Shown: positions 28,620 to 34,421 of the stretch, piece after piece
Position numbering within the stretch: the first letter of the stretch is position 1
How the letters are laid out: every line of letters begins with the position of its first letter
Made by a program: the position numbers and the translations under genes
The notes under the pieces: model-generated
Seen by the model: the letters and a program-made list of their open reading frames with translations, nothing else
Told to the model about the DNA's origin: nothing
Database searches by the model: none
Assembly (NCBI GenBank): GCA_017936765.1
Contig: JAGBEX010000014.1
Location: 248,001 to 312,000 of the forward strand
Direction: 5' to 3'
Length of the DNA stretch: 64,000 bases
Source: Clostridia bacterium
Lineage (GTDB): Bacteria; Bacillota; Clostridia; Christensenellales; Aristaeellaceae

Positions 28620-29759
28620 ATGGCAGATTCAGCCTACCGTGAGCAGATCGATGCCAAGCGCATCATGCAGATTCGTTCCATCACTCGCGAGCTGCCCCAG
28701 GCTTGCTCTGACTTCCTGCGCAGCATCGCTGTGACCACCGGCACCTTTACGCGGCTTGCCTATGCCATCGACCTGCGTACCTTCTTTCATTTTCTACAAT
28801 CGGAACGTGTCGCGTTTTCAGACAAGAATTTGACCCTTTGGTCGGATGAAGACCTCTCCCGCGTGTCTCAGAGCGATCTGACGGCGTATGTCGAATACCT
28901 GACCTACTATTTCAAGTCTGATGACGATTCTGGCGAGCAGCCTGTCAAGGCGCTGGTCAACCATGACCTGGCCATCAAGCGCAAGCTGTGTTCCATCAGA
29001 TCGTTCTACGATTTTCTTTTCAAGAATCATCGTGTGCCGTCCAACGTAACGCTGCTTGTGCCGCTGCCGAAGATTCACGAGAAACCGATTCTTCGTTTGA
29101 ATCGTGATGAAATGATCAAGATGCTCAACCAGGCCGAAACTGGCGAAGGCATGACGGATGGTCAGAAACGCTATCAGAAGCTCACAGCCAAGCGTGATTA
29201 TGCCATGCTGTCCTTGTTTTTGGGAACAGGCATTCGCGTTTCTGAGTGTGTTGGGATCAATTTGTCTGACATCAATATGGAAGAAAACGCCTTTTTGGTC
29301 ACCAGAAAGGGCGGAAATCAGGTTGTTTTGTATTTTCCGGCCGAAGTTGCTACCGCTTTAGCCGAATATATCGAGGAACGCACAAAAATAGACACCCTTC
29401 CTGGTCATGAGGATGCCTTGTTTTTGTCCTTGCAGAAGCGCCGGATCACCCAGCGCGCTGTGCAGAATCTTGTGAAGAAATACGCGGCTGTGGCAGCTCC
29501 GCTGAAGCCGAAGATCAGCCCTCATAAGCTCCGCAGCACCTTTGCCACCAACCTCTATAACGCCACCGGAGATATTTACCTGGTGGCCGATGTGCTGGGC
29601 CATTCCTCGGTGGATACCACCCGCAAGCACTATGCCGACATGACCGACGCCCGACGCCGCATGGCTGCGGAATATGTTCGCTTGCCCGGCACAGAGGCCG
29701 ATACTGGCGACACTCCGGACATGAATTTTGCCAATCAGCCCGACAAGCCGGTCACCTGA
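28620..29759 (+). CDS. XerC/D-like tyrosine recombinase
   Basis: A 379-residue site-specific recombinase. An N-terminal SAM-like core-binding domain (~30-140) is followed by the catalytic domain. All catalytic residues are present: R206 (GTGIRVSE), K230, H302 and R305 (HKLR), H328 (GHSS) and nucleophile Y338 (KHYA). It is longer than standard XerC/XerD (about 300 residues) because of an N-terminal extension and a hydrophilic tail (ADTGDTPDMNF). AAAGGAGGG precedes the ATG at 28620. It may be the chromosome-dimer resolvase or a dedicated recombinase. No integrated element is visible beside it. Its stop codon directly abuts that of the convergent gene. Confidence 0.9.
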   Translation: MADSAYREQIDAKRIMQIRSITRELPQACSDFLRSIAVTTGTFTRLAYAIDLRTFFHFLQSERVAFSDKNLTLWSDEDLSRVSQSDLTAYVEYLTYYFKSDDDSGEQPVKALVNHDLAIKRKLCSIRSFYDFLFKNHRVPSNVTLLVPLPKIHEKPILRLNRDEMIKMLNQAETGEGMTDGQKRYQKLTAKRDYAMLSLFLGTGIRVSECVGINLSDINMEENAFLVTRKGGNQVVLYFPAEVATALAEYIEERTKIDTLPGHEDALFLSLQKRRITQRAVQNLVKKYAAVAAPLKPKISPHKLRSTFATNLYNATGDIYLVADVLGHSSVDTTRKHYADMTDARRRMAAEYVRLPGTEADTGDTPDMNFANQPDKPVT

Positions 29760-30011
29760 TCAATGATGATGGTGATGATCGTAATCGCAGCCGCAGTCAC
29801 AATCATGGTGATGGAACTCCCCTGCCTGTTTTGCTTCAAACTCGGCTTCAAGCTCAAAATCATCCACCATAATGGCACGGTATTCTGCATCGCTGTTGAT
29901 GCACTTCATGCAATTATCACAAATTTTGTTGGGATCCAGGTCGCATCGGTCGCACTCGCCGCAGCCGATGCACTCTTTTTCTTCAAGCACACACTGCTTC
30001 TTCAAAGCCAT
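29760..30011 (-). CDS. Cys/His-rich mini-protein divergent from lexA
   Basis: An 83-residue protein with two cysteine arrays. The first is C14-x2-C17-x2-C20-x2-C23 (ECIGCGECDRCDL). The second is C31-x2-C34-x2-C37 (CDNCMKC). The C-terminus is CDCGC followed by a terminal run of five histidines. The pattern suggests an Fe-S cluster or zinc site plus a metal-binding tail. The classical ferredoxin spacing CxxCxxCxxxCP is not met. The ATG at 30011 follows AGGAGA. It is transcribed divergently from lexA, and its promoter carries a LexA-like box, so it is probably an SOS gene. Function is unknown. Confidence 0.8.
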   Translation of the reverse strand: MALKKQCVLEEKECIGCGECDRCDLDPNKICDNCMKCINSDAEYRAIMVDDFELEAEFEAKQAGEFHHHDCDCGCDYDHHHHH

Positions 30012-30031
30012 TTCAATCATCTCCTGTAAGA

Positions 30032-30107
30032 ATTATAACATATGTTCCCTTTATTTGCAATCATTTGGGAACATATGTTTGATTTTTTTGTTCGCATATG
30101 TTATAAT
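30032..30107. promoter_or_regulatory. Divergent promoters with three LexA-like boxes
   Basis: Plus promoter for lexA: TTGATT (30079-30084), 17-base spacer, TATAAT (30102-30107). Minus promoter for the Cys/His mini-protein: TTGCAA (30060-30055), 17-base spacer, TATAAT (30037-30032). Three CATATGTT-cored sites overlap them: TAACATATGTTCCC (30036-30049), GGAACATATGTTTG (30068-30081) and CGCATATGTTA (around 30093-30103). The middle one is close to the Gram-positive SOS box GAAC-N4-GTTC. LexA would block both promoters. Confidence 0.85.
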
Positions 30108-30137: not shown

Positions 30138-30749
30138 ATGCAGCGTCCCCGTGGCGATAATCAGCAGCGTATTCTTGACTTTATCAAGTCCGAAATCCAG
30201 CAAAAGGGCTATCCCCCGTCCGTGCGGGAAATTGCCAATGCTGTTGGTCTGAAATCCACCTCAACGGTACACGGTCATTTGCAGCGCCTTGAAAAGCGCG
30301 GCCTGCTCCATCGCGACGCCATGAAGCCTCGCGCCATGGAGGTTGTTGGCGACCCCAATTTTGTGCGCAATAATTCTACTGCTGTGCCGCTGGTCGGGCG
30401 TGTCACCGCCGGTCAACCCATTCTGGCCGAAGAAAATCTCGAGGAATATGTTGTTATCCCCGAGGTTATGCTGGGTGATGGCGAACACTTTATTTTGCTT
30501 GTTCGCGGCGACAGCATGATCGAGGCCGGCATCCTTGATGGCGACTACATCGTAGTCAAGCGACAGGCAGAAGCCAACAACGGTGAGATCGTTGTGGCCA
30601 TGATCGACGATTCTGCGACCGTGAAGCGTTTCTTCAAGGAAAATGGCCATTTCCGCCTGCAGCCGGAAAACAGCACCATGGAACCCATTTATGCGGACGA
30701 GGTCACCATCCTGGGCAAGGTTATTTCCCTTTATCGCTTGGTGAAGTAA
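30138..30749 (+). CDS. lexA: LexA repressor, SOS regulator
   Basis: A 203-residue repressor of DNA-damage genes. The N-terminal winged helix (YPPSVREIANAVGLKSTSTVHGHLQRLE) binds SOS boxes. The C-terminal peptidase domain has the self-cleavage bond A91-G92 (VTAGQP), catalytic Ser126 (GDSMIEAG) and Lys141. RecA filaments would trigger self-cleavage. The ATG at 30138 begins MQRPRGDNQQRIL. Upstream in-frame codons lie in the promoter. Boxes at its own promoter indicate autorepression. Confidence 0.97.
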   Translation: MQRPRGDNQQRILDFIKSEIQQKGYPPSVREIANAVGLKSTSTVHGHLQRLEKRGLLHRDAMKPRAMEVVGDPNFVRNNSTAVPLVGRVTAGQPILAEENLEEYVVIPEVMLGDGEHFILLVRGDSMIEAGILDGDYIVVKRQAEANNGEIVVAMIDDSATVKRFFKENGHFRLQPENSTMEPIYADEVTILGKVISLYRLVK

Positions 30750-34155: not shown

Positions 34156-34347
34156 TTAGCAGCGGTTGCAGCCGCATCCGCTATTCTCTTTGAAATAATC
34201 GCCAGCCTGACTCAGGAAGCCCACGCCAGTCATAACAGCAACGATGGAGCCGGTCAGACCTGACCAACCGATGATGGCGCCATAGAGAAGGATAATGACT
34301 GCGGAAATGATACCAAACAGAATCAAAGCGTATCCAAGACCACGCAT
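34156..34347 (-). CDS. Small membrane protein with Cys-rich tail
   Basis: A 63-residue protein with two hydrophobic helices (LILFGIISAVIILLYGAII and a second TGSIVAVMTGVGFL) and the C-terminus SGCGCNRC, which could bind a metal or form disulfides. The ATG at 34347 has GGAGAG about 8 bases upstream. The GTG at 34356 is an alternative. It has its own terminator, so it is a deliberate short transcript. No family was recognised. Confidence 0.7.
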   Translation of the reverse strand: MRGLGYALILFGIISAVIILLYGAIIGWSGLTGSIVAVMTGVGFLSQAGDYFKENSGCGCNRC

Positions 34348-34421
34348 TGCTTTCACTCTCCTTATCGGTCGCAGCTAATGCTGCGACCTGCTTCAATTTA
34401 TGTTGCCAATTTAAAAATGTG

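Follow-up and report, generated by a model that had tools for sequence, protein, structure and literature searches.

The window, by which we mean the whole 64,000-nucleotide stretch of DNA analysed, carries next to lexA a gene that we read as encoding a LexA-repressed protein of 83 amino acids with two four-cysteine modules, probably a two-site Zn or [4Fe-4S] protein with a general metal- or redox-linked activity; we give this reading a probability of roughly 0.62. It builds on the gene itself, its conservation, the duplication of its module, the LexA boxes and the synteny, all of them readable at the level of sequence. Comparison of the small protein with Pfam, NCBIfam, PHROGs and PDB sequences gave no significant match, bearing out the sequence-only reading of this DNA, which had not recognised the family. 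Phage records contained no match to the protein either, and the literature on the SOS response and small Cys-rich or Fe-S proteins in Firmicutes yielded nothing on this family. AlphaFold models of the whole protein (49 sequences; pLDDT 64, pTM 0.24) and of its 57-residue core (46 sequences; pLDDT 67, pTM 0.31) showed no confident fold, so that neither the metal type nor the fold draws support from these poor models.

The small gene and its immediate surroundings in the window comprise the following features:

29760..30011, minus strand: coding sequence of the twin tetra-cysteine protein, 83 aa, ATG at 30011, with orthologues and pN/pS of 0-0.08
30021..30025, minus strand: ribosome-binding site (RBS) of the small gene, AGGAG, 9 nt before the ATG
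30032..30060, minus strand: sigma-70-type promoter of the small gene, TTGCAA-17-TATAAT
30079..30107, plus strand: sigma-70-type promoter of lexA, TTGATT-17-TATAAT
30138..30749, plus strand: lexA, 203 aa (PF01726, 2e-24)
28620..29759, plus strand: Xer-type tyrosine recombinase gene, convergent, its stop abutting that of the small gene

An in-frame ATG further upstream, at 30020, touches the RBS and is thus an unlikely start for the small gene. The gene diverges from lexA across a gap of 126 bp, given before as 127 bases and corrected here with the lexA start at 30138. Beyond lexA the gene order is lexA-hlyIII-gaf, followed by a GNAT gene; yneA is absent from the window, as from its lineage, and the small gene sits directly under the LexA boxes. 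The small frame might have been a chance frame opposite a real gene, as the plus strand has open frames too (29763-30029). This idea, to which we give practically no credence, is refuted by the conservation data: orthologues occur across the phylum, promoter and RBS are in place, and four close relatives differ over 37 core codons by 0-4 nonsynonymous versus 8-16 synonymous changes (pN/pS 0-0.08), indicating purifying selection in the frame of the small gene. Elsewhere in the window (34156-34356, minus strand), a 66-aa membrane-like protein that has no Pfam match ends in NSGCGCNRC.

Of the genomes sampled, 12 of 18 in the genus, 152 of 300 in the family, 87 of 391 in the class and 48 of 398 in the phylum carry an orthologue, with rare exceptions as a single copy; at class level, orthologues are present in 52 of the 223 genera sampled. 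Where the 80 loci examined have named records, the hosts are almost without exception uncultured Clostridia or Clostridiales, many of them from ruminant guts.

The core of the protein contains eight cysteines (C7, 14, 17, 20, 23, 31, 34 and 37), which fall into two modules of the pattern C-x(6-7)-C-x2-C-x2-C:

29952..29993, minus strand: module 1, residues 7-20, C-VLEEKE-C-IG-C-GE-C
29901..29945, minus strand: module 2, residues 23-37, C-DLDPNKI-C-DN-C-MK-C, a repeat of module 1

The two arrays had been noticed from the letters, with seven cysteines instead of eight since C7 was missed. Their conservation, put forward then as a point to check, is nearly complete: 173 of the 175 distinct core sequences retain the full set of eight, and the positions L9, G18, D24, L25, P27, K29, D32 and N33 are strongly conserved as well. 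The modules share the fuller unit C-x-L-[DE]-x-x-K-x-C-[DN]-x-C-x-x-C, the first copy often being one residue shorter. For the 63 distinct members with modules of equal length, non-Cys identity between modules 1 and 2 of the same protein reaches a median of 36% and a maximum of 64%, and the mean BLOSUM62 score is 16.4, as opposed to -5.6 for shuffles (p<0.05 in 81%). The core therefore reads as a tandem duplication of one module, a feature that the present analysis adds. Two Clostridium-like relatives (L158 and L159) have lost module 1 and possess only module 2, intact. As the module both repeats and is lost singly, it is likely an independent four-ligand metal site, and each module would probably hold one metal centre, either Zn or [4Fe-4S]. 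Metal binding, already suggested by the sequence-only reading, thus gains its support from conservation, with eight cysteines in 173 of 175 sequences arranged in two repeated four-cysteine modules, from which we infer it for the family. Members from family f45 (L157:4862-5341, L158:4871-5254, L159:4710-5144 and L168:5017-5400) bear an acidic extension with a conserved terminal E-E-F/V/Y-P-G-L/V-x-R motif, perhaps a peptide that binds a partner.

By contrast with the core, the end of the protein is lineage-specific:

29763..29813, minus strand: His/Cys tail HHHDCDCGCDYDHHHHH, residues 67-83

This tail, with three further cysteines plus His3 and His5, is confined to the closest relatives of the window. 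At least four histidines after the core occur in 16 of 153 distinct members, and similar His/Cys ends appear separately in the genus of the window, in the class family f21 and in L082, pointing to about three origins. The His5/CDCGC end, previously taken as a defining feature, is consequently ruled out as such, since only about 10% of the members have a tail of this kind. Its repeated gain is in keeping with metal handling, and the tail is accessory.

Regulation by LexA was examined by scoring boxes as matches out of eight to GAACN4GTTC, the operator given for B. subtilis (PMC4234289). Three sites in the gap are relevant, none of them assigned to a strand:

30036..30047: LexA box A, TAACATATGTTC, in the spacer and -10 of the small-gene promoter, 7/8 to GAACN4GTTC
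30069..30080: LexA box B, GAACATATGTTT, over the lexA -35, 7/8 to GAACN4GTTC, conserved across the genus
30092..30103: degenerate third CATATGTT site, at the lexA -10, 4/8, not kept in relatives

Each promoter thus has one box of 7/8, in line with the LexA-like sites that had been seen on both of them; the third CATATGTT site listed at the same time falls away, with its score of 4/8 and its lack of conservation in relatives. Box B reads CAAACA-NN-TGTTC or nearly so across the genus, and box A, over the -10 of the small gene, is shared by the window and the four relatives nearest to it. The exact sequence AACATATGTT occurs twice in the whole 64 kb, as boxes A and B. Across the window, sites that fit GAACN4GTTC with a single mismatch are no rarer than expected by chance, so that the case for the boxes rests on position and conservation. 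In this respect, boxes of at least 7/8 lie in 42 of the 43 lexA-side gaps of lexA-adjacent loci versus 2 of 35 upstream of the gene elsewhere (Fisher p about 2e-18). We infer from these sites that LexA binds the boxes and that the small gene is inducible, and DNA damage very likely turns the gene on where lexA is its neighbour. The SOS control suggested earlier accordingly finds support, both in these 42 gaps and in the frequent position of the gene behind a YneA-like SOS gene.

The genome to which the window belongs (2.8 Mb, 44 contigs) showed no overall enrichment of AACANNTGTTC, with 17 matches versus 17 for the reversed control. Two standard SOS genes, dinB (Pfam IMS) and uvrA, have box matches close to their starts, in support of LexA control, and no clear box was found upstream of recA. 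LexA-type boxes also separate dinB from a divergent 97-aa protein that has no Pfam match (L246:240-1998), a candidate for a further SOS gene.

The lexA/yneA locus is the standard SOS locus in Gram-positive bacteria. We surveyed 78 loci of the small gene, about one per genus, and found lexA upstream and divergent in 43 of them and in no other orientation, an adjacency for which chance is negligible by a rough binomial estimate in which the genera are not independent. A YneA-like LysM gene stands between lexA and the small gene, on the same strand as the latter, in 32 of the 78 loci. The gap between yneA and the small gene is below 250 nt in 19 of these 32, and it exceeds 250 nt, up to 2.5 kb, in the other 13, for which co-transcription of the two genes cannot be taken as given. 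The miaA-hfq-ynbB cluster is often nearby too, as is a convergent Xer gene. The recurrence of the lexA/yneA synteny and of the boxes across genera indicates that the small gene belongs to the clostridial lexA/yneA SOS locus, of which the window appears to be a reduced form that lacks yneA. A co-directional Xer gene occurs in 5 of the 78 loci; in L081, L092 and L094 it follows the small gene, itself divergent from lexA, making it a possible SOS-controlled recombinase. COG4974 (the CodV/Xer group) is listed as a new candidate in a published human-gut SOS meta-regulon (PMC3998124), a signal that could be explained by a small gene and a co-directional Xer gene behind lexA.

Nevertheless, the gene is also kept without LexA. 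It is not near lexA in 35 of the 78 loci, and boxes are found in 2 of these 35. Twelve of the 35 genomes have no match to the LexA DNA-binding domain, although one of them (G428) does have a LexA-like protein according to a full-length search; in G745, G846 and G894, the distance to lexA is about 4.5 kb, slightly beyond the part that was read. Canonical LexA is absent from most f21 and f22 genomes, which keep the small gene without boxes, and seven genomes of genus g26, from the window's own family, keep it with short wHTH matches only. Since lineages devoid of canonical LexA retain the gene, the activity of the protein does not seem to depend on the SOS response, and the idea of a protein dedicated to it finds no support. 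Several related loci have the GNAT gene adjoining the small gene, as if the lexA-hlyIII-gaf segment had been cut out, and no box is left; relocation of the small gene away from lexA in part of the window's family was rejected, deletion of this segment being simpler where GNAT now adjoins. Genus g26 has a two-gene cassette near a carbamoyltransferase-like gene (L261:1638-2713, L262:1323-2521 and L263:1658-2778), in which an XRE-HTH plus S24-like protein of 274-310 aa overlaps by 4 bases with an 84-89-aa protein that consists of a LexA-type winged-helix domain only; the cassette looks like a split or substitute LexA. In relatives of this kind (L022:4275-5882, L025:4275-5891 and L264:2086-3720), the gene after the small one, on the same strand, encodes a metallo-beta-lactamase-like protein with a length of about 540 aa (MKITFIGA.HQVTGSCTLVEW).

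These lineages also bear on whether LexA control has any meaning for function. The protein might be a housekeeping metalloprotein that merely lies beside lexA, its control being a by-product of the shared gap. The absence of boxes where canonical LexA is missing (most f21 and f22, and g26) and the loci where GNAT adjoins the gene around an apparently deleted lexA segment speak for this view, which we nonetheless consider unlikely. Passive linkage explains less well why adjacency and boxes come back in 43 loci, in most of which the gene stands behind yneA and does not share lexA's own gap, and the -10 of the small gene itself lies under a second box in the window and four near relatives. A more elaborate proposal is that a two-centre metal or Fe-S sensor or adaptor acts with YneA or LexA in the clostridial damage checkpoint and serves another regulator where canonical LexA has been lost; we judge this rather improbable, and if true, metal or redox state would feed into the SOS response.

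As to the chemistry of the protein, a two-site zinc adaptor that binds proteins or nucleic acids is a possibility that we hold tentatively. The zinc site of RecQ has the spacing C-x16-C-x2-C-x2-C and the local sequence CGNCDIC, with which the ligand spacing is comparable and which CGECDRC and CDNCMKC resemble. Members with a single module exist, and L158, L159 and L163 gave sub-threshold recQ_fam matches (E 0.07-0.38); these matches are, however, at chance level, no fold supports them, and the abundance of Asp and Glu speaks against direct contact with DNA. A ferredoxin-like electron carrier with two [4Fe-4S] clusters, which we regard as doubtful, would account for the two C-x2-C-x2-C triads, each with a cysteine before it, and would suit clostridial hosts that are presumably anaerobes. 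Sub-threshold matches of the CIxCGxC stretch were obtained with clostridial ferredoxins (E at least 0.98) and with Fer4 models (E at least 0.25), but no match was significant and no model passed its cut-off. Moreover, the small protein lacks the C-x3-C-P with which the ferredoxin motif ends, its fourth cysteine precedes the triad instead of following it, and ferredoxin ligand sets interleave, whereas the modules of the small protein repeat and can be lost as units. High cysteine content and the separate gain of His/Cys tails in the genus of the window, f21 and L082 could also suggest a metallothionein-like metal store or buffer. We find this very improbable because the fixed cysteine spacing and the strongly conserved non-Cys positions are unlike a loose metallothionein, and most members have no tail.

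Under our preferred reading, a LexA-repressed protein with two metal sites, LexA on box A would cover the promoter of the small gene and LexA on box B that of lexA. DNA damage would activate RecA and thereby LexA self-cleavage, so that the small gene and lexA would be derepressed together, the former occupying the place of the gene behind yneA in the clostridial lexA-yneA SOS locus. The survival of the gene after the loss of canonical LexA suggests that the protein by itself probably has a general activity, linked to metal or redox chemistry. Its biochemical role is open to conjecture: the protein could be a small metallo-adaptor, an electron or metal carrier, or a sensor, placed under damage control in many clostridia. 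In many clostridial genera, the lexA/yneA locus thus carries a family for which the libraries searched offer neither name nor domain model nor structure. This family may tie metal or redox chemistry to the damage response of bacteria that are presumably anaerobic, a small connection that can be tested. Lineages with the gene and no canonical LexA would be a natural control for a role outside the SOS response.

Several known systems invite comparison. The bacterial 2[4Fe-4S] ferredoxins likewise have eight cysteines, C-x2-C-x2-C triads and an internal duplication; the small protein differs in lacking C-x3-C-P, in its reversed ligand order, in the CDLDPxKxCDN of its second half and in the absence of a significant match. 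With the RecQ zinc site it shares four cysteines ending in C-x2-C-x2-C and similar local letters, but that site is part of a large helicase, its spacing is 16 versus 6-7 in a protein of 83 aa, and no match is significant (E 0.07 and above). At the level of the locus, B. subtilis also has lexA divergent from a damage-induced operon, yneA-yneB-ynzC; the gap between them contains several GAACN4GTTC boxes, small genes come after yneA and a recombinase gene is nearby. YneB and YneA come from one operon in this species (PMC6051672). The clostridial gene after yneA is Cys-rich, in contrast to the resolvase YneB and the DUF896 protein YnzC, the clostridial recombinase is an Xer-type tyrosine recombinase and usually convergent, and the window lacks yneA. 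By DAP-seq, C. thermocellum LexA binds at three sites upstream of lexA, which has a divergent YneA-like gene (PMC8457756), and Clo1313_1449 (LexA) and the divergent YneA-like Clo1313_1450 display the same arrangement of lexA, boxes and SOS gene.
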